Below, piece by piece: positions 2,666-43,381 of a stretch of 44,414 nt of DNA. Numbering within the stretch: position 1 is the first letter of the stretch; each line of letters opens with the position of its first letter. A model generated the notes under the pieces. That model did no database searches. It was not told where the DNA came from and saw nothing but the letters and a program-made list of their open reading frames with translations. The position numbers were made by a program, and so were the translations under genes. Source of the DNA: a virus; the IMG/VR virus record IMGVR_UViG_3300032304_001914, positions 1 to 44,414 of that record. One strand, 5' to 3'.

Positions 2666-3310
2666 ATGAAAATCATTATTTCAGAATCACAATATAATAA
2701 AATTATTCAAAGTATACAAGAACAAGAATCATCTCTTGGTAAATTATTAAATTTTTTATCATCAAGTGAAGATGAAGAAGATGAATCTGAAGAAGATACT
2801 ACTGACACTGAAAAAGGGTATGAAGTTGATTCGTTATCTTCATCAGAAAAATTAAGTTCACCTCTTAAAAAATTTAATGTTAATCCAAGTTCAAAATTTG
2901 GGGTTGTTAGACCTGGATTAGATACCCAAAGACCTCATTCTGGGGCTGATTTAAGTGGTGCTCAAGGTGAACCAATTTATGCTCCAGGTGATGGGAAAAT
3001 AAGGATATCAAAGAAAACAGGTGACAATGGAGGTTGCGGAGGGACATTATTTATAAGTCATCCAAGTGGATTAGAAAGTAGATTTTGTCATCTTAGTGAT
3101 ATATTCGTCAAAGAAGGTGATAAGGTCAAAAGAGGTGATAAAGTAGGATTAGTTGGGGGTGCTAAAGGAACTCAAGGTGCTGGATTTTCAACAGGACCAC
3201 ATTTGCATTATACCTTAGCTAAAGGAGCAAGTACTGAACTATTAGACCCAGAAAAATACGTTGAGAAAAAATTCTATGACAAAGATTCTGATAGTTTTTT
3301 AACAGCCTAA
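2666..3310 (+). CDS. Virion-type M23 metallopeptidase with N-terminal leader
   Basis: 214 residues from ATG 2666; the frame extends upstream but only this start gives the shared leader MKIIISESQ. Residues 17-19 are IQE, a possible prohead-protease site. Then comes ESSLGKLLNFL, an identical stretch to the lysozyme at 40209, then a very acidic Asp/Glu/Ser linker. The C-terminal LytM/M23 domain shows HSGADLS (first His and Asp) and GPHLHY (HxH zinc motif). It probably cuts peptide cross-links of host peptidoglycan and is packaged in the virion. Hydrolase family confident; packaging inferred. Confidence 0.85.
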   Translation: MKIIISESQYNKIIQSIQEQESSLGKLLNFLSSSEDEEDESEEDTTDTEKGYEVDSLSSSEKLSSPLKKFNVNPSSKFGVVRPGLDTQRPHSGADLSGAQGEPIYAPGDGKIRISKKTGDNGGCGGTLFISHPSGLESRFCHLSDIFVKEGDKVKRGDKVGLVGGAKGTQGAGFSTGPHLHYTLAKGASTELLDPEKYVEKKFYDKDSDSFLTA

Positions 3311-8695: not shown

Positions 8696-8978
8696 TACCC
8701 AGGGCGGGACTCGAACCCGCACGACCTTATTGGTCACAAGATTTTCTTACCACTATGGTTTTCACCACCTTTTCAGTTTGTGGTCTGGACTATACCTTAA
8801 CCATATCTTTCGACTTAGGTTCTCCGTGTCTAGTCTCTACACCTTTTCAATTTCTTGAACTTGGCTCGGTATTACCATTTTAAAGACTTCACCGAATTTA
8901 CGGAGTTCTACTTAAAGGTTTTCACCAATAGCACTCAAATTTTTAAGTCTTGCGTGGCTACCATTACACCACCTAGGC
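8696..8978 (-). tRNA. tRNA-Leu(UAA) interrupted by a group I intron
   Basis: Exons 8978-8945 and 8745-8696 join to a class II Leu tRNA. Acceptor GCCTAGG/CCTGGGT, D-arm GTGTAATGGTAGCCAC, anticodon stem CAAGA/TCTTG and loop CTTAAAA (UAA). The variable arm is GACC/GGTC and the T-arm GCGGG-TTCGAGT-CCCGC. The break falls after U34, the position of the tRNA-Leu(UAA) intron of cyanobacteria and plastids. Spliced length is 84 nt, with no CCA encoded. Confidence 0.93.
8746..8944 (-). other. Group I intron (IC3-like, 199 nt) in tRNA-Leu(UAA)
   Basis: The 5' exon ends in T and the intron ends in G, as in group I splicing. Inside are GGTAATACCGAGCCAAG, matching the P3-P6 core seen as GGCAATCCTGAGCCAA in cyanobacterial and plastid tRNA-Leu introns, and GGTGTAGAGACT, matching GGTGCAGAGACT. 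A P7/P8-like GGTATAGTCCAGACC follows. There is no ORF. It is close to the minimal intron size. Self-splicing is inferred from the conserved core. Confidence 0.9.
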
Positions 8979-16960: not shown

Positions 16961-18421
16961 TTAAACTTCTATCATCTTGTATCTTTCGGACTCGATGGTT
17001 TCGGTCATAATTAATACTGGTGATAGTTCTTTTCCACCAAGAATTGACTTCAAGATTGATGGACTAAAACCGGATATTAATGCTGTACCACTTTCATCAA
17101 AACGAACAGGAAAGTTATCTCCTCTCGATTGTATGTTCCAAAAGATAATACCAGGTAGTTGATATCCACTATTCTCATATTCTTCACGAATCATTTGAAT
17201 TGCGGAATTATTACGACCAGTTGCTTGATTAAATTCCATATCTGATAAGATAAGGATTTTAGTCGGCATCTCACTTTGAGGTACATTGTGTTTAATTGAT
17301 TGGTTTAGAATCAATTTGAACACAGACTCCAAGTTTGTACTCATACCCCATTCAGCTGCACGTAGTTGTGTGTATCTATCATATAGATTACCTCTCAACT
17401 TTTGTAATTGCGGTCTCTCAGAGAATGTAATGAAAGAGTCTTTAAAAGAACCTTCATTTCTTTCTGAAATATACAATCCCAATGATACTGCGACATCCAA
17501 ACAAGTTAGATTACTATTGTTACCGGCTAAATTAATCATTGAAACTGATACATCAACTACTGGTAAAATTCTTTCGTTACTTCCTTCCATAAAGTTGGGA
17601 AGAGCTTTCCATTGTTCTATAGCCAAATCTTTGACACCTTGTTCCAAAGTTTTAACAACATCATATGGATATACAGCCCCAGCATTTACTTTGACCTCAC
17701 CTTTTTTCAATGATTCCAAGTATTCTCCAAAACCAATTAAATTGTGTTTAGAGAATGCTTTGGTGTATCGAGCCATAGCCAAAGATGGTACTTTTGAGTA
17801 TTCAATATTTGACCACTCGTTAGCACACATCTTTTGCTCGACCGTTTTGGAAAGAACAACCAACATCTTTCGTAATGATTTTGGTGTAAGACCCATAACC
17901 TTCCTGATTGAGTTAAAAATAACTCCTTTTCTTGGCATCCACTTTGCACATAGTCCATTTTTGGCTTCTAAACCTTGTACTATTGTGTCAATCGCATCGT
18001 TATTCACTTTTGTGTTGAATAGGACTGTAAGATCGTCCCAACGACCGAATTCAGGGATGAATTTGATATTCTTTACCAATACTTTTGGTGCCACCTCTGC
18101 TAAGAGTTGGATTATATCACGGAATATTTGTCTTTCACCAGCACCACCACGAACATCTCTCGCCCAAAATAATATACGCAATGCAGTTTTAGGATTCTCA
18201 ATGAAAGCTTTTGAGAATAGACTTAACAATCTTTCTTTGTCTTGTCCTCTCATTGCCCCAATAGTAAAGAATAGATTCACACACTCGTTAAGAGTTGATG
18301 AATTTGTAACCATACCATTTTCAGTTAAGGTATCTTCTGTCTGTAATGCGTCTAAGAAGTTCATAATATTCTGTTTTTGAATTTGTTTTGAAAGTATATG
18401 ATTAATAATTTGGTTTGTCAA
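16961..18421 (-). CDS. TROVE/Ro60-like RNA-binding protein (DUF2828 type) with vWA domain
   Basis: 486 residues. The N-terminal helical-repeat part contains GAMRGQDKERLL near 55 and LFWARDVRGGAGERQIFR near 84-101, the signature of the TROVE/DUF2828 module. The C-terminal von Willebrand A domain has the MIDAS DVSVS at 290-294 and a later KILILSDMEF. Ro60 and bacterial Rsr form a ring that binds Y RNAs and misfolded RNA ends. Here the gene flanks a large tRNA cluster and structured elements, suggesting RNA quality control or RNA scaffolding. RNA binding is inferred from the family. Confidence 0.85.
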   Translation of the reverse strand: MTNQIINHILSKQIQKQNIMNFLDALQTEDTLTENGMVTNSSTLNECVNLFFTIGAMRGQDKERLLSLFSKAFIENPKTALRILFWARDVRGGAGERQIFRDIIQLLAEVAPKVLVKNIKFIPEFGRWDDLTVLFNTKVNNDAIDTIVQGLEAKNGLCAKWMPRKGVIFNSIRKVMGLTPKSLRKMLVVLSKTVEQKMCANEWSNIEYSKVPSLAMARYTKAFSKHNLIGFGEYLESLKKGEVKVNAGAVYPYDVVKTLEQGVKDLAIEQWKALPNFMEGSNERILPVVDVSVSMINLAGNNSNLTCLDVAVSLGLYISERNEGSFKDSFITFSERPQLQKLRGNLYDRYTQLRAAEWGMSTNLESVFKLILNQSIKHNVPQSEMPTKILILSDMEFNQATGRNNSAIQMIREEYENSGYQLPGIIFWNIQSRGDNFPVRFDESGTALISGFSPSILKSILGGKELSPVLIMTETIESERYKMIEV

Positions 18422-25205: not shown

Positions 25206-25832
25206 ATGAGAATTATAATTACAGAAAGTCAAAAAAGAATGATAATACTTGAAAACATAGGTGAAGACCTTGGAAGTATTATCAAACAAAATGTTGAGAG
25301 AGTAAAAACATTAGTTTTAGAAGTTCAAAATCAAATTGGAATGAATCTTCAATTTCTTTTAACTTGGGGGGCTGGAATTGGTGGATTTATGGGACCTGTT
25401 GAAGATTTTGTGAGAGGTAAATTCCCAGAATTAACCGATTTACAAGTATTTCTTATTATTCTTGGGGTTTTATCAACACATTTGATTGAAAATAAAGAAC
25501 TTAACAAAAAAATATTAGATAAAATAAAAGAAGGTGGAATTTTAAAACAATTTAAAGTAACCTCAAAAAAAACAAGTGAATTAAAATCAGTTTTTTATGA
25601 CTTTGTTGAAAGTTTGGGTGTCACATTCCATAGAATAACAAATATGTTGAGCTATACCTTTATAATACCAATCATCCCAATGATATATCAAATGGTGACT
25701 GATGGATTAGTGACAAATGGTGATTTAAAAAGTTTGGTAACAAGAGTTATTGCTTTTACTGGTTTAACAATATCAGGTATTCTTTTTAAAGATTTAATTA
25801 CAAAAATGGTTAGAAGATTTAAGGGTGAATAA
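25206..25832 (+). CDS. Membrane protein with phage leader
   Basis: 208 residues. Leader MRIIITESQKRMIILEN with I-L-E at 14-16. Then an amphipathic region and hydrophobic segments near 50-66, 80-95, 145-165 and 180-195. The shared leader suggests delivery to the virion despite the membrane segments, perhaps an ejected protein. Divergent from the 24663 block. No family recognised. Confidence 0.65.
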   Translation: MRIIITESQKRMIILENIGEDLGSIIKQNVERVKTLVLEVQNQIGMNLQFLLTWGAGIGGFMGPVEDFVRGKFPELTDLQVFLIILGVLSTHLIENKELNKKILDKIKEGGILKQFKVTSKKTSELKSVFYDFVESLGVTFHRITNMLSYTFIIPIIPMIYQMVTDGLVTNGDLKSLVTRVIAFTGLTISGILFKDLITKMVRRFKGE

Positions 25833-27735: not shown

Positions 27736-27994
27736 TAATTTTGACTTTCAAATTACTATTTCCTTTAATAACACGATGATAAACACCCTCTGGGATAAAA
27801 TATTTCTCCCCAACAATTAATTTGATGGGGAGTTCATTATCCATTTGTAAATACCAATTATCACTTTCTAAGATTTCAACAAGTCTATTTTCTCTATCTC
27901 TATGCCATTTTAATTCTTCATCATCAACATTTTCATCAAATGTTCTAATTCTAATGTCATCAATTATTTCTTGTTGAAAGGGCAGATTTTCCAT
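27725..27994 (-). CDS. Cupin-like phage protein
   Basis: 89 residues from ATG 27994; the frame opens two codons earlier with TTG. RTFDENVDDEELKWHRDRENR, then LESDNWYLQMDNELPIKL and FIPEGVYHRVIKG: a small cupin fold with HR and YHR metal-site His residues. Its start overlaps the upstream stop (TAATG). Its 3' end overlaps the convergent zinc-motif gene. I associate this sequence with phages; the substrate is unknown. Confidence 0.7.
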   Translation of the reverse strand: MENLPFQQEIIDDIRIRTFDENVDDEELKWHRDRENRLVEILESDNWYLQMDNELPIKLIVGEKYFIPEGVYHRVIKGNSNLKVKITIH

Positions 27995-28620
27995 TACCAA
28001 TTAGCACTAGATTTTAATCCCAATTTTTTGGCATACCTCCCAACATTGCAACTCCAGTACCCGGCCATTGTTCTGTCTTTCTTTTGGGCACAATTATGTC
28101 TTGCTCTAAATGATTTTGCAGCCTTTGGATTTCTATTTCTCACTTTAAGATTAGGGTCTCCAAATGTTACTTTCTTAATTGTACCCTTTGGTGTTTTTAC
28201 ATAAACTGCAAATTTTTTAGGACCTCCTGGTGTTCTAAATGGGGAATTTAATTTAACATTCTTTCCACGATGTTTTGCTTCAAATAATAACTCCTCAACT
28301 TCCTCTTCAAACATTGGAGCGTCCAACCAAACTTCATCACCATTCTCTAATAATACCTTTTTACCCAAGTCAGATTCAACCAACCAAATATCATCTTCGT
28401 TTAATCTAATATTACCTTGATTGTATAAATTTCTTACTTCATTGATTAATTTAAAATACTTGTCAGAATATATTCTAAAGATATTTTCATTCAGTGATAT
28501 TCTGTTCTCCAAATGATATTTTAAATCTTCAGATATCATACAAGGTTCTGTTAATCTCATTGGGGGGTTAAGAGATTCTCTCAAAACTTTTTTTATTAAA
28601 TTGTCTAAACTATTTCTCAT
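27994..28620 (-). CDS. Virion-associated protein with conserved KSFRARHNC domain
   Basis: 208 residues. N-terminus SLDNLIKKVLRES with L-R-E at 13-15, a leader variant. The C-terminal half GGPKKFAVYVKTPKGTIKK, VTFGDP and KSFRARHNCAQKKD is a domain I recall from many tailed phages, usually at the end of head- or tail-associated proteins. It has basic and Cys residues suited to zinc or nucleic acid. A motif close to TATTTATA (one change) is 14 nt before the ATG. Coupled to the cupin gene. Confidence 0.7.
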   Translation of the reverse strand: MRNSLDNLIKKVLRESLNPPMRLTEPCMISEDLKYHLENRISLNENIFRIYSDKYFKLINEVRNLYNQGNIRLNEDDIWLVESDLGKKVLLENGDEVWLDAPMFEEEVEELLFEAKHRGKNVKLNSPFRTPGGPKKFAVYVKTPKGTIKKVTFGDPNLKVRNRNPKAAKSFRARHNCAQKKDRTMAGYWSCNVGRYAKKLGLKSSANW

Positions 28621-28692
28621 AATTTGTTTTTTTAGATAAATATTCTTACTTTTATAATCATATATTAACTATCAAACAATTAAATAACTATT

Positions 28693-28896
28693 ATGAAATT
28701 TTATCGGTTTTTTCACGCGATTATGCAAATCTATATTTTTGCAAAAGTTTCTTATTTACTTTTTATGACTTCTTATAACCCTGAAGCTTATCCATTATCA
28801 ATGTTAAATTGGTGGATATATTTCCTAATTTTTGATATTTGGATGAACACCATATTAACCAATGAAAAACCTTTAAAAAAAGATGATAACAATTAA
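28693..28896 (+). CDS. Small membrane protein
   Basis: 67 residues, MKFYRFFHAIMQIYIFAKV start, hydrophobic to about residue 55, then a charged KPLKKDDNN tail. One to two transmembrane helices. Stands alone before the 28942 gene. Function unknown. Confidence 0.55.
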   Translation: MKFYRFFHAIMQIYIFAKVSYLLFMTSYNPEAYPLSMLNWWIYFLIFDIWMNTILTNEKPLKKDDNN

Positions 28897-28917
28897 ACAA
28901 CATAATATTTTTCGATA

Positions 28918-28925
28918 TATTTATA
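28918..28925 (+). promoter_or_regulatory. TATTTATA late-type promoter motif
   Basis: Exact TATTTATA, 16 nt before the ATG of the leader protein at 28942. Confidence 0.6.
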
Positions 28926-28941
28926 AAGAAAAACTTTTATT

Positions 28942-29457
28942 ATGAGATATAAAATTAATGAATCTAATATTAGATACACAATTAAAAAAGTATTACTAGA
29001 ACAAGAAGCGAAAGAAGATAAACCTAAACAAAGGTGTGTTCCTGAAAATGTAATCCCATTAGATGAAATTGTTGGTACTGCTGATGAATATATTGATTAT
29101 GCCCCAGGTGTAAACAAAAGAAAACTTGGTGTAAATTCAATGGTTGATACTTTAGGTATTCTTAATAATATAAGATTATTCAAAGATGTTAAAGATGGTG
29201 GAGCTCATTTAGCTTATAATATGATGCACCATTTAAATAAGTTCAGAAATAAAAACTATTACGATGAAACATCAAATCAATGCAATAAAGCTATGGACAA
29301 GATAATTGAATTGTATAAAGAAAATGAACATGGAACTGAACTTGTTAAAGATATTGAAAGAGTATTAAATCTCCAAACAAAAGATGACGAATACACACCT
29401 TCACCAAGAGCAAAAGAATATCTTAAAAGATGTTTAGTCTTGGTTAAGGGAGAATAA
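28942..29457 (+). CDS. Leader protein, unknown function
   Basis: 171 residues. Leader MRYKINESNIRYTIKKVLLEQE with L-L-E at 18-20, then a globular helical domain (VIPLDEIVGTADEYIDYAPG; LAYNMMHHLNKFRN). No transmembrane segment or enzyme motif. By analogy with T4 internal proteins it may be head-packaged and injected. Confidence 0.7.
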   Translation: MRYKINESNIRYTIKKVLLEQEAKEDKPKQRCVPENVIPLDEIVGTADEYIDYAPGVNKRKLGVNSMVDTLGILNNIRLFKDVKDGGAHLAYNMMHHLNKFRNKNYYDETSNQCNKAMDKIIELYKENEHGTELVKDIERVLNLQTKDDEYTPSPRAKEYLKRCLVLVKGE

Positions 29458-29884: not shown

Positions 29885-32322
<2,438 letters not shown>

Positions 32323-33640: not shown

Positions 33641-34138
33641 TTATTCTTGTTCACCTTCTTTATATTTTTCTTCATTAAATTCTTTTAAATTATTCTTTAT
33701 ACTCTTACCAAAATTAACTAAATCTAAAACGTGACGTATAAGTCCTTTTCCAAACATTACTTTCCAATTCTCATCAATTGATTTCATTTCAGCATAAATT
33801 AAACCCAAACTAATTATCTTGGTTGATAGATGTTGTATAGGTATTAAATATTTAACAAATTCATTTAGTAAAAAAACATCCAACATAAAAAACAACAATA
33901 TCAATGAAGTATACCCAATTAATTTTGGAACAAACCCTCTTACAAAAGCTCTTGAAGTCCATCTAATTTTAACCCCCTCTCTACGTTGTTTAATTATCCT
34001 ACAATAAGCAGTAATGATATCAAGTAATACAAATCCTAGGACAACCAATAATATTCCAGCAGAAGGGGCAAAAAACGTCAAAATCGATAACCAAAATCCA
34101 AATAACCCCTCTTTGACAGTTTCAAATAAATGCTTCAT
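33641..34138 (-). CDS. Holin of the phage_holin_4 type
   Basis: 165 residues with three to four hydrophobic helices (FFAPSAGILLVVLGFVLLDII at about 22-42, a second near 77-92, a third about 98-115) and a charged tail. The VLLDIITAYCRII segment with its Asp is characteristic of this holin family. Divergently paired with the endolysin at 34237. It would form the inner-membrane hole that releases endolysin or disrupts the membrane potential. Confidence 0.8.
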   Translation of the reverse strand: MKHLFETVKEGLFGFWLSILTFFAPSAGILLVVLGFVLLDIITAYCRIIKQRREGVKIRWTSRAFVRGFVPKLIGYTSLILLFFMLDVFLLNEFVKYLIPIQHLSTKIISLGLIYAEMKSIDENWKVMFGKGLIRHVLDLVNFGKSIKNNLKEFNEEKYKEGEQE

Positions 34139-34212
34139 ATATATTTTTTTTTAAGTAAATAGTTTTTATTAAATTTAACAATTATAAATATCTAAATTTG
34201 AATAAAAGTCGG

Positions 34213-34220
34213 TATTTATA
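34213..34220 (+). promoter_or_regulatory. TATTTATA late-type promoter motif
   Basis: Exact, 16 nt before the endolysin ATG at 34237, which supports that start over the TTG at 34198. Confidence 0.6.
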
Positions 34221-34236
34221 TAAAAACTATCACACT

Positions 34237-35040
34237 ATGTTAAAAATCGGATCAAAAGGAAACTTGGTAAAACTCCTCCAAGAAAAACTAGGAGTTACAG
34301 CTGATGGTGATTTCGGACCTAAAACCGAATCAGTACTAAAAGAGTGGCAATCTAAGAATGGTTTGGTTGTCGATGGTATTGCAGGTCAAGTGACTTTGTC
34401 AAAGATGGGAATTGAAATTCCTGTAGTCAAAAAAGAATCATTAAAATTGGATAAACTTAAAGGTCACGTACCACAAAATGTGATTGACGAGATTGGTTTA
34501 ATTGCTGAAAAATTTAACCTCATCACAAATCTTCGTTTAGCACATTTCTTAGCTCAATGTTCTCACGAATCGGGTAATTTTAAAATCCTTACAGAGAATT
34601 TAAATTATTCAAAAGATGGTTTAATGAAAATATTTGGAGGATATTTCCCTAGTAACTTGGCTGAATCTTATGCCCACCAACCTGAGAAAATTGCTTCTCG
34701 TGTTTATGGAAGTAGAATGGGTAATGGTGATGAAACGACTAAAGAGGGGTGGAAATTCCGTGGTCGCGGATTTTTACAAGTAACAGGTAAACAAAATTAC
34801 CAAATATTAGGTGATTTTTTAAATGTTGATTTGGTATCTAATCCAGACTTAGTTGCTACAACATACCCATTGTCTTCAGCCGCTCATTTCTTTTATAAAA
34901 ATAATCTTTGGCCGATATGTGATGAAGGTTTATCAGAAGAAGTTGTTACGAGAGTAAGTAGAAGAGTGAATGGAGGGGATAACGGACTCCAACACAGAAA
35001 ATCAGAATTTAAAAGATTTGAAAAACTATTACTAGTTTAA
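34237..35040 (+). CDS. Endolysin: peptidoglycan-binding plus GH19-like domain
   Basis: 267 residues from ATG 34237. Residues 1-60 form a PG_binding_1 domain (LQEKLGVTADGDFGPKTESVL, then VDGIAGQVT). The rest is a GH19 chitinase/lysozyme-like catalytic domain with AQCSHESGNF (catalytic Glu), KFRGRGFLQVTGKQNY and VSRRVNGGDNG. It lacks a signal peptide, so it depends on the holin next door. Terminator follows. Confidence 0.9.
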   Translation: MLKIGSKGNLVKLLQEKLGVTADGDFGPKTESVLKEWQSKNGLVVDGIAGQVTLSKMGIEIPVVKKESLKLDKLKGHVPQNVIDEIGLIAEKFNLITNLRLAHFLAQCSHESGNFKILTENLNYSKDGLMKIFGGYFPSNLAESYAHQPEKIASRVYGSRMGNGDETTKEGWKFRGRGFLQVTGKQNYQILGDFLNVDLVSNPDLVATTYPLSSAAHFFYKNNLWPICDEGLSEEVVTRVSRRVNGGDNGLQHRKSEFKRFEKLLLV

Positions 35041-36761: not shown

Positions 36762-37190
36762 ATGAAAAAAATTGTAAGATTAACAGAATCTGATTTAGTT
36801 AGATTAGTAAAAAGAGTTATTAATGAACAAAATATTGTGGTTTCTGATCCAGATATCAAATATGTTGCTAATAGACCAAATACTTCTGCTATCAAACATA
36901 GCCCTAACCCTCAAATAGTTAATGGTATTGTTGACTTATTTTACCCAACAGATTTGACAAAGAAAGTTGCTGATGGTCGTGATTTTGGAACTTGGGGTGA
37001 TTATATAGCTGCCAATTATTCCCTAACCCCAAGAGGAAATGATTATTTAACAAACATCAATCCTAATGTTCCTACTGGTAGGATGTTTAAATTTACTAAT
37101 GATATGCATGGTTATCCAAGAGGAACAATAGTTAGAGTTACACCTAGTAGTGGTACTAGAAAACAATCAAATCCATCTTTTGATTTTTAA
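36762..37190 (+). CDS. Leader protein, unknown function
   Basis: 142 residues. Leader MKKIVRLTESDLVRLVKRV followed by I-N-E at 20-22. The rest has TDLTKKVADGRDFGTWGDY and a basic, Pro/Asn-rich tail. No known domain. The leader is nearly the same as those of the two tandem genes at 42418 and 42959, which have different bodies. Confidence 0.75.
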   Translation: MKKIVRLTESDLVRLVKRVINEQNIVVSDPDIKYVANRPNTSAIKHSPNPQIVNGIVDLFYPTDLTKKVADGRDFGTWGDYIAANYSLTPRGNDYLTNINPNVPTGRMFKFTNDMHGYPRGTIVRVTPSSGTRKQSNPSFDF

Positions 37191-38862: not shown

Positions 38863-39327
38863 TTATTTGATATAAAAATCCAAAAATTTTTTCACAACTA
38901 GATTAAGAGGATGTTCAACTTCATTCATATGAATTTCCATTTGATTTGACATTTCATTTTCATAAAATTCTCGGTCAGAATCAGTTTCAGCTGTTTGTAT
39001 GAGATTAGTTAATTTTTTAAATCCACCAATTTGAAGTATCTTATATATTTTTGGGTTATATTTTAGAAAATTAACAATATTTTCCTTTAATTCTTTTTTA
39101 TTATTAAGATATCTAAAATATTCTTCAACCTCAACACCAAACATATCAGTATATTTGGCAACAAAATCAATTTTACCACCTCTACCATCAGTTAAATTGT
39201 GATATATAAGGTCATTACTGACATTAAAAATTGTTTTAAGGTATTCAAATAGTTCTTGGTTAACATCATCATAATGTTTGTTAAGTATTCTTCTTTTTTC
39301 GTTTTCAGAAATTATTATTTTTTTCAT
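38863..39327 (-). CDS. Leader-type protein, unknown function
   Basis: 154 residues starting MKKIIISENEKRRILNKHY, the leader motif without a clear L-x-E at its usual place. The body is helical with a YFRYLNNKKELKEN region and LVVKKFLDFYIK tail. TATTTATA is 24 nt before the ATG. Function unknown. Confidence 0.65.
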   Translation of the reverse strand: MKKIIISENEKRRILNKHYDDVNQELFEYLKTIFNVSNDLIYHNLTDGRGGKIDFVAKYTDMFGVEVEEYFRYLNNKKELKENIVNFLKYNPKIYKILQIGGFKKLTNLIQTAETDSDREFYENEMSNQMEIHMNEVEHPLNLVVKKFLDFYIK

Positions 39328-40208: not shown

Positions 40209-41015
40209 ATGAAAAAATTTGTTATAACAGAACAAGATAAACAATATATTCGAAATTTATATAAATTATCTGAATCTGAATCAAGTTTAGGTAAACTATT
40301 AAATTTTTTATCACCTAGTGACACTAAAGACGAAGATGAAATTGAGGATTTAGATAGTGAAACTACATCAGATACTGAAAATGACACAATAAATGACATT
40401 ACTAGTCTTAATGATAATGAAAATATAGTACTAAAACAATTAAAAAAGGATGGGTTTACCGATGAAGCTACGGCTGCTGTTATGGGTGTCGTAGGAGGTG
40501 AAAGTGGATTTAAAACATTCAAAGAAGCTAGTTATAAAACTACAGCAAATAGTAGAATAAGAGCTATTTTTGGTTCAAAACTTGGTAATATGTCAGATAG
40601 TGAATTAGATAAATTAAAACAATCCGATGAAGCTTTTTTTAATAAAGTATATGGTGGTATGTATGGAAATGCGCCTAATGAAGGATATAAATATGTTGGT
40701 AGGGGTTTCAATGGTATAACATTTCAGGGTAATTATAAAGCAGCACAAGAGTGCACAGGAATAGGATTTTTAGATAACCCTGAACTAATGGAAAAACCTG
40801 AAAATGCCGCAAAAGCATTATCTTGTTATTTTAAAAAGGTAAAAGATATTAATGATTTTGAAAAAGCCTTCCAAGAAACTTATAGACAAAATGCCGGACC
40901 TGGTAATACTTGGGAATTTTATGCAAATAATTCGAATCCTGTCAATGTAGTAGGAATACCGCTTAAAAAAGGAAAAGCTAAAGAATATTATAAAAAAATA
41001 AAAAGTATTGTATAA
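40209..41015 (+). CDS. Virion-type lysozyme with leader and acidic linker
   Basis: 268 residues. Leader MKKFVITEQDKQYIRNLYK with L-S-E at 20-22, then ESSLGKLLNFL identical to the M23 protein, then an acidic linker with DSETTSDTEND. The C-terminal domain has VMGVVGGESGF (catalytic Glu) and YVGRGFNGITFQGNYKAA, a GH19/phage-lysozyme layout. Two wall enzymes thus share one N-terminal module, fitting a packaged or tail-associated enzyme. Confidence 0.8.
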   Translation: MKKFVITEQDKQYIRNLYKLSESESSLGKLLNFLSPSDTKDEDEIEDLDSETTSDTENDTINDITSLNDNENIVLKQLKKDGFTDEATAAVMGVVGGESGFKTFKEASYKTTANSRIRAIFGSKLGNMSDSELDKLKQSDEAFFNKVYGGMYGNAPNEGYKYVGRGFNGITFQGNYKAAQECTGIGFLDNPELMEKPENAAKALSCYFKKVKDINDFEKAFQETYRQNAGPGNTWEFYANNSNPVNVVGIPLKKGKAKEYYKKIKSIV

Positions 41016-42417: not shown

Positions 42418-42957
42418 TCAATATTTTTTTAAAGGAAATTTATTAATACATTCTAAAATAATTTCTTTAAATTTATCTAATTCACTTAAGTCAACAAAAT
42501 ATTCAAAAATTTCATCATCATCATTTGACCAACGAGAAACTTTACTTTGGTCATTTGCGAAATCAATATTTAATTTTTTAAAATAATTAATAATATTTGT
42601 GTCAAATTGGTCTAATAACCCTAGAGCGAACTTATTTATTGGGTCTTTACCAGCACAATGTCCAATTATCATTATTTTATATTTACTATTTTCTGGAGAT
42701 TTTAAAAATTTTATTGTTAAACCATAAACTTCAAATTCATTTTTTCCTATTTTATTATAACAATCGTAACTTGGTTTTACATCCAAAATATATTTTCCTT
42801 GTAATTCTACAGAATTAAGTGTGTCAATTAAATTATAAGTTGATTTTGACAATTCAACAAAATCAGAATATTTTAATATAGGTATTTCAGATTCCAATAT
42901 AATATTTTTAATAACCTTAACTAAATCAGACTCAGTTAATCTTATAATTCTTTTCAT
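42418..42957 (-). CDS. Leader protein, unknown function (tandem copy)
   Basis: 179 residues from ATG 42957, chosen because it gives the standard leader MKRIIRLTESDLVKVIKN and I-L-E at 20-22; an ATG three codons earlier is possible. Body includes KPSYDCYNKIGKNEFEVYG and a beta-rich LTIKFLKSPEN. Adjacent gene 42959 has almost the same leader on a different body. Confidence 0.7.
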   Translation of the reverse strand: MKRIIRLTESDLVKVIKNIILESEIPILKYSDFVELSKSTYNLIDTLNSVELQGKYILDVKPSYDCYNKIGKNEFEVYGLTIKFLKSPENSKYKIMIIGHCAGKDPINKFALGLLDQFDTNIINYFKKLNIDFANDQSKVSRWSNDDDEIFEYFVDLSELDKFKEIILECINKFPLKKY

Positions 42958-42958
42958 T

Positions 42959-43381
42959 TTAAACATTTTTTATATTCATAGATGTTTTAATATCCGATAG
43001 TAACCTAGGATATTCATTTTCACTATATTCTTTATTCATATAAATGTATTTATCAAAAGTATCTCGTTCTAATCCAGGTGATGGATTCCAATTAGGATTT
43101 AATGTGTTTGATATAACCAAATAAGGTTTAATTTTATTATTTGTGTCTATCTTAACTTCTATCTTATTACCCATTTTATCGTTATATTGGAACATATGAG
43201 TCAAATCCTTATTTAAATTGTATTTAAATCTAAGTCTTTCCAATTCATTTTTAATATTAGTAACTACTTTTGGTGAAGGAGTTGTGCTCCCTCCACCTGG
43301 ATCGTCAAGTATTCTTTGTTCCTTAATAACCCTTTTTACCAATTTAACTAAATCTGATTCTGTTAATCGTATTATTTTCAT
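42959..43381 (-). CDS. Leader protein, unknown function (tandem copy)
   Basis: 140 residues. Leader MKIIRLTESDLVKLVKRV with I-K-E at 19-21, then a Gly/Ser/Pro-rich spacer (LDDPGGGSTTPSP) and a beta-like domain. A one-base variant of the TATTTATA box lies upstream. Its stop overlaps the next gene's region by a few bases, so the pair is one unit. Confidence 0.7.
   Translation of the reverse strand: MKIIRLTESDLVKLVKRVIKEQRILDDPGGGSTTPSPKVVTNIKNELERLRFKYNLNKDLTHMFQYNDKMGNKIEVKIDTNNKIKPYLVISNTLNPNWNPSPGLERDTFDKYIYMNKEYSENEYPRLLSDIKTSMNIKNV

Follow-up and report, generated by a model that had tools for sequence, protein, structure and literature searches.

An M23 peptidase and a GH19-type lysozyme encoded by a 44,414-nucleotide contig of an uncultivated T4-like phage (IMG/VR record IMGVR_UViG_3300032304_001914; the whole stretch is referred to here as the window) share an N-terminal segment that resolves into two parts, a generic leader of ~20 residues and a second module behind a predicted cleavage site. 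Based on the comparisons described below, we lean towards the view that the first part is a T4-like capsid-targeting leader whose removal in the prohead leaves wall hydrolases packed in the head with a phage-specific helix exposed.

The ORFs of the M23 peptidase (2666-3310) and the lysozyme (40209-41015), whose coordinates and starts agree with the first-pass annotation, begin with MKIIISESQYNKIIQSIQEQESSLGKLLNFLSSSEDEEDESEEDTTD... and MKKFVITEQDKQYIRNLYKLSESESSLGKLLNFLSPSDTKDEDEIEDLDSETT..., respectively. Twelve residues, ESSLGKLLNFLS, are identical between the two proteins and are followed in both by a linker of 41-45% D/E and 34-35% S/T, and then by unrelated folds, Peptidase_M23 and GH19-type (Table 1), an arrangement noticed at first pass for the 11 residues ESSLGKLLNFL. 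A search within the record of this phage aligned the two proteins with each other (E=2e-8) over residues 6-62 only. The codons of ESSLGKLLNFLS show several synonymous differences between the two genes (e.g. TCT/AGT, CTT/TTA, TTA/CTA), and the exact 11-mer ESSLGKLLNFL was absent from every other contig in IMG/VR. The earlier claim that both enzymes have the same leader holds for ESSLGKLLNFL, but the residues before it gave a local score of 22 compared to 65 for the next 20 residues. These leaders are of one family and differ in sequence. L/I-x-E sites are found in the M23 protein at residues 7 and 19 only, and the predicted prohead-protease sites (cut marked by an arrow) are IQE↓Q in the M23 protein and LSE↓S in the lysozyme.

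Table 1. Leader-bearing proteins of the window, parts of the two wall hydrolases, and the lysis pair.
Feature	Position	Strand	Evidence
Leader of M23 protein, MKIIISESQYNKIIQSIQE, class B/C; predicted site after residue 19	2666-2722	+	Leader HMM E 2e-7
Second module of M23 protein, QESSLGKLLNFLS; predicted new N-terminus after cleavage	2723-2761	+	12 residues identical in lysozyme; ESYLGKLLNFLS in M15 protein of sister phage
Acidic Ser/Asp/Glu linker of M23 protein	2762-2863	+	Composition; DNA breakpoint of M23/M15 swap at linker start
M23 peptidase domain, HSGAD and HLH zinc motifs	2864-3307	+	PF01551 3.9e-23, residues 90-187; PDB M23 chains down to 8e-17
Leader-bearing protein MRIIITESQKRMIILENIGED..., function unassigned	25206-25832	+	Leader HMM 8e-9
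Marginal leader MRNSLDNLIKKVLRES..., phrog_7595 family	27994-28620	-	Leader HMM 0.02; phrog_7595 2.5e-13
Leader-bearing protein MRYKINESNIRYTIKKVLLEQ..., marginal	28942-29457	+	Leader HMM 0.04
Holin-like protein adjoining un-leadered endolysin	33641-34138	-	PF05105 1.8e-7
Endolysin without leader, PG_binding_1 and GH19; same catalytic class as lysozyme	34198-35040	+	PF01471 7.8e-12, PF00182 2.7e-8
Class A leader MKKIVRLTESDLVRLVKRVINEQ..., unrecognised body	36762-37190	+	Leader HMM 2e-18
Class B leader MKKIIISENEKRRILNK..., unrecognised body	38863-39327	-	Leader HMM 4e-8
Leader of lysozyme, MKKFVITEQDKQYIRNLYKLSE, class B; predicted site after residue 22	40209-40274	+	Leader HMM E 2e-6; modelled helix 8-17
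Second module of lysozyme, SESSLGKLLNFLS	40275-40313	+	Shared with M23 protein; short modelled helix 27-33, outside enzyme domain
Acidic Ser/Thr/Asp/Glu linker of lysozyme, predicted disordered	40314-40406	+	pLDDT <50 at residues 29-64
GH19-type lysozyme/endolysin domain	40407-41012	+	phrog_181 3.4e-20; profile to PDB endolysins 2.4e-24; Foldseek GH19 endolysins
Class A leader MKRIIRLTESDLVKVIKNIILESE..., unrecognised body	42418-42957	-	Leader HMM 3e-14
Class A leader MKIIRLTESDLVKLVKRVIKEQ..., unrecognised body	42959-43381	-	Leader HMM 4e-17

The leader occupies the first ~20 residues, has the consensus (I/R)(I/L)(T/S)E...[IL]xE and is carried by hundreds of proteins in related T4-like phages. 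Nine leader-bearing ORFs (two marginal) were identified in the window, 32 in the 322-kb relative G017 and 29 in G002. At E<0.1, two leader HMMs matched 195 and 241 of the 2,030 distinct N-termini, but gave 4-5 matches when applied to residues 61-120 and none against shuffled sequences. The leader is strictly N-terminal and generic. Class A leaders end in [IL]xE followed by a small or polar residue in 85% of cases (6% downstream, 17% in shuffled sequences), and class B leaders, with their variable spacing, do so in 65% (8% and 19%). Variation at synonymous sites of the leader is close to the background level, which rules out an RNA or DNA element and places selection at the protein level. The strict 10-residue pattern (KIIRLTESDL) was found in at least 119 viral stretches of IMG/VR, among them contigs of 290-413 kb. 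A tblastn search of annotated phages with the leader peptides, which are too short as queries, returned chance matches only, and we found no description of the motif in the literature. Among bacteria and archaea (84,980 species genomes; 11.3 million contigs), the strict pattern was found in 2 contigs, both times inside ordinary genes and apparently by chance. Together with the absence of a Sec-type hydrophobic core, this near absence from cellular genomes makes it hardly credible that the leader is an export signal routing proteins to the host periplasm via a host pathway, despite the enrichment of peptidoglycan-active domains in its cargo.

That enrichment emerged from a Pfam survey of 93 leader-bearing representatives, 6 of which had been added by hand for their hydrolase-like look. 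The recognised cargo was mostly peptidoglycan-active (M23, PG_binding_1, GH24, LysM, Tae4, GH19 and VanY), Pfam recognised no replication or packaging enzyme among the 93, and most of these proteins were without a known domain. Small proteins with the leader (MKIIINESQLRLIVEN...), LRR-like in some cases, are encoded in tandem at 5124-16080 of L156 (G002) and possibly form a large battery of injected proteins. A leader-bearing family with a hydrophobic middle (PTPITDTINAVSYFVQGDTLFG...) has seven members (L042 3753-4826, L034, L020, L023) and no Pfam match. The prevalence of wall hydrolases is also what would be expected of a lysis-control propeptide keeping lysis enzymes inactive or mislocated until late, which would make these enzymes endolysins with a regulatory N-terminus. 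We give this explanation little credence, as the majority of leader proteins are not recognisable hydrolases and the same phage has a separate un-leadered endolysin beside its holin. This canonical lysis pair provides an internal contrast within the window. A glucosaminidase (PF01832; 41737-42339, minus strand) adjoining the lysozyme gene has an apparent Sec-type N-terminus and no leader.

The second module sits directly behind the predicted L/I-x-E cut and is carried only by wall hydrolases. In at least three phage lineages, second modules are common to unrelated enzymes (M23, M15 and GH19). Three adjacent genes of L007 (M15, M23 and lysozyme) have common segments of the type NITE↓IDSAKALxALxxLV(D/N)K, and the M23 peptidase and lysozyme of L210 both have E(N/S)EK(T/I)FxKFI(N/D)xMMK(D/E)LPK behind clearly different leaders. 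With module borders set by the analyst, 15 leadered hydrolases forming 7 within-phage pairs in three lineages gave a mean score over the 20 residues after the site of 60.6 for different enzymes of the same phage compared to 18.1 for the same enzyme in different phages; the second module tracked the phage (permutation p=5e-5), whereas the leader did not (p=0.49). A further pair, from L225, has another class A leader and the following sequence in common and was left out of this statistic. Since the second module is phage-specific and the leader is not, the two are combined independently of each other, and the boundary between them coincides with the predicted cleavage site. The N-terminus is thus not the one 35-residue module that had been proposed, and consists instead of a generic leader and a hydrolase-specific second module that recombine independently.

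A sister phage (L003/G001) shows the same address in front of another enzyme. Its DNA is 90-96% identical to the window upstream and through the leader and ESxLGKLLNFLS, behind which the M23 peptidase is replaced by an M15-like peptidase that carries a second domain at its C-terminus, and the two sequences match again right after the M15 stop codon. The blastn identity ends at 2785-2814, in the acidic linker. The tentative M15 assignment is based on SKHILGLSID in the sister protein (pattern SxHxxGxxxD); the VanY match is weak, at 0.009 for this protein and 5e-4 for its homologue in L007. An arrangement in which the M15 gene precedes a further M23 gene was ruled out by the downstream flank, which matches the window immediately after the M15 stop. 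The difference between the sisters is therefore a direct cassette swap, which shows directly that enzymes change places behind a constant address. The M15-like protein is also the third carrier for which a search had been suggested, and with the three adjacent L007 hydrolases and the swap itself it bears out the idea of a module exchanged between enzymes. It could be argued that the segment is a by-product of recombination without a docking role, in which a duplicated 5' end recombines readily at the repetitive linker and enzymes are shuffled behind it. The swap breakpoint does fall in the linker, and the 5' ends of the L007 M23 and lysozyme genes are 87.5% identical in DNA. We nevertheless regard this as quite unlikely: the 12-residue identity in the window is kept despite synonymous changes, the L210 enzymes share their second module behind different leaders, and the background-level synonymous variation of the leader indicates selection on the protein.

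The shared segment lies outside the enzyme folds. The M23 protein has the HxxxD and HxH zinc motifs of its family (Table 1), and the lysozyme has a GH19 endolysin fold (Foldseek 7r6s, 1.3e-5) in which the acidic residues E98 and E106 are invariant across 26 sequences. A lysozyme structure predicted from the single sequence was poor (pLDDT 43), and an alignment of 26 sequences was therefore used. In the resulting model, the catalytic domain, from residue 66 on, is mostly at pLDDT >90, and the leader helix, the SLGKLLN helix and the linker are all outside it. Homologues of the lysozyme elsewhere are un-leadered endolysins, domains in large multi-domain proteins (some tail-type), or have other N-termini. 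The model and these homologues together place the segment outside the lysozyme fold, and we did not find it to be part of each enzyme's own fold, the observation that the first-pass annotation had named as contrary to its proposal. Although the catalytic fold is that of GH19 endolysins, the window lysozyme differs from them by the preceding leader, second module and acidic linker and by the lack of a peptidoglycan-binding domain, and its phage also encodes a separate canonical endolysin.

The end of the leader points to a T4-type head. The cleavage motif of T4 gp21 is L/I-X-E, and the CTS through which T4 internal proteins enter the head is an N-terminal propeptide of 10-19 residues (PMC9026906); the N-terminus of T4 ipII and ipIII is MKTYQEFIAE↓A. 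Both gp21 (PF03420) and gp23 were found in 19 of the 27 leader-bearing records, including the sister phage, whose gp21 lies at 28411-29127 of G001, and they stand beside the genes for terminase, portal and scaffold. No head genes are on the window contig, and we infer its gp21 and gp23 from the sister. The gp23 propeptide ends in LINE↓A or LIYE↓A in 12/12 cases examined, which resembles leader ends such as VINE↓Q. No HK97-type protease (PF04586) was found in the leader-bearing records without gp21; G016 and G027, which have no gp21 or gp23 matches, look like incomplete T4-like contigs. The GH19 homologues of another phage group start instead with the T4-CTS-like MKHLKQFTRFINE↓Q, and one phage with such an enzyme has T4 portal and gp23. 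Immediately after the predicted cut, Q/N/D/S predominate, compared to Ala in gp23 and T4 substrates, and this mismatch is the main objection at the sequence level. A by-eye comparison with ipII and ipIII showed no likeness between the leader and the T4 CTS beyond the end motif, and we therefore propose that the leader works like a CTS and is not a homologous member of that family. A derivation of the leader from a scaffold helix (LVKESLNE↓Q) was suggestive by eye but not significant. Flavobacterium phage immuto, as the nearest isolate, encodes gp21 but lacks the leader, with a single marginal match in 160 kb. The hosts are probably Bacteroidota, since gp23 is close to that of immuto (40% identity) and similar freshwater phages with clustered large terminase, portal, prohead protease and major capsid genes have predicted Bacteroidetes hosts (PMC9723584). 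One phage, G035, has two T4-type portal genes in succession (547 and 548 aa; 136085-139381).

The first-pass annotation had proposed that the module loads both enzymes into the virion at one site. In a fuller form of this model, the whole N-terminus would be a docking tag that stays uncleaved and brings several enzymes to a single place, such as the baseplate or tail tube. Such a tag would be like the N-terminal signal of contractile injection systems, an uncleaved signal needed for loading into the tube. The sharing of the second module by several unrelated wall hydrolases of one phage would suit such a tag, as would the GH19 homologues that are domains within tail length or hub-like proteins of other phages, and the virion lysozyme of T4, gp5, is a baseplate protein. 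An uncleaved tag is nonetheless unlikely in our assessment, because many proteins that are not wall enzymes have the same leader, the recurrent L/I-x-E ending fits a head protease rather than a tail process, and the leader and second module on either side of that site combine independently of each other.

Collectively, the evidence favours packaging into the prohead by means of a T4-type leader that would be cleaved off, and the second module may serve the enzymes as a shared docking handle. The ~20-residue leader would act like the CTS of T4 internal proteins and bring the protein into the prohead core, where a gp21-type prohead protease would remove it after the L/I-x-E site. The second module, which is ESSLGKLLNFLS in this phage and a different short amphipathic helix in its relatives, would then become the new N-terminus. 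Because this helix is restricted to a given phage's wall hydrolases, all of them probably bind through it to a single phage-specific partner, located in the head on the core, portal or DNA-exit side. The enzymes would be held there by the flexible acidic linker until they exit with the DNA, after which they would open the wall. We put forward more tentatively a two-tier address, in which a generic head-entry leader removed by the protease serves dozens of cargo proteins per phage and a phage-specific helix serves the wall hydrolases alone. The unrelated M23, M15 and GH19 enzymes would then make up a single wall-opening kit that is carried in the head, has interchangeable members and co-evolves with a single docking partner.

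The proposed system resembles the T4 internal proteins IPI, IPII, IPIII and Alt in having a short N-terminal leader on unrelated proteins, an L/I-x-E end and gp21/gp23 phages, and in that relatives exchange cargo while the leader stays constant (PMC9026906, PMC12373910); in T-even phages the leader alone is common to the internal proteins (PMC12373910). It differs in its leader, which is unrelated to MKTYQEFIAE, is ~20 residues long and has mostly Q/N/D/S after the cut, in its cargo, which reaches ~32 proteins per genome and is rich in wall hydrolases, and in the phage-specific second module that the hydrolases carry in addition. T7 gp16 is a head protein with a peptidoglycan-hydrolase domain that is ejected into the periplasm (PMC8954989). 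The likeness that we propose to gp16 and other head-packed ejection proteins is a head-carried wall-cutting domain delivered with the DNA, but gp16 is one large core protein without a cleavable leader, whereas here separate small enzymes have interchangeable tags. In the giant phages SPN3US and phiKZ, head propeptides are removed by gp21-related proteases, and the diverged gp53 and gp54 have identical N-termini (PMC5694885). These two features are shared in kind with the system proposed here; the giant-phage propeptides, however, exceed 100 residues in most cases and do not occur on small cargo proteins by the dozen.

Other features of the window were also recorded. The dnaK gene (29885-32301, minus strand) is split into 31693-32301 (HSP70 model positions 1-195) and 29885-31132 (206-598), with 560 bp between them that may be an intron or insertion and that gave no Rfam match. 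A Group I intron (RF00028, 58.6 bits; 8764-8955, minus strand) lies within a cluster of 22 minus-strand tRNA genes. A DUF2828/DUF7788 protein is encoded at 16961-18421 (minus strand), and a similar protein (TTLTENGA...) is found in the jumbo relatives G016 and G027.

Capsid targeting in T4 is known from a handful of proteins. If the proposed reading is true, capsid targeting with a different leader also operates in a large, uncultivated clade of T4-like and jumbo phages, where a single genome may label up to ~30 proteins, and wall hydrolases join the head cargo of myoviruses. One shared label could load many different proteins. The leader rule predicts semi-tryptic N-termini at the predicted cut in virion proteomes, and the leader would serve as a sequence rule for predicting injected proteins in metagenomes, where most genes are without an assigned function.
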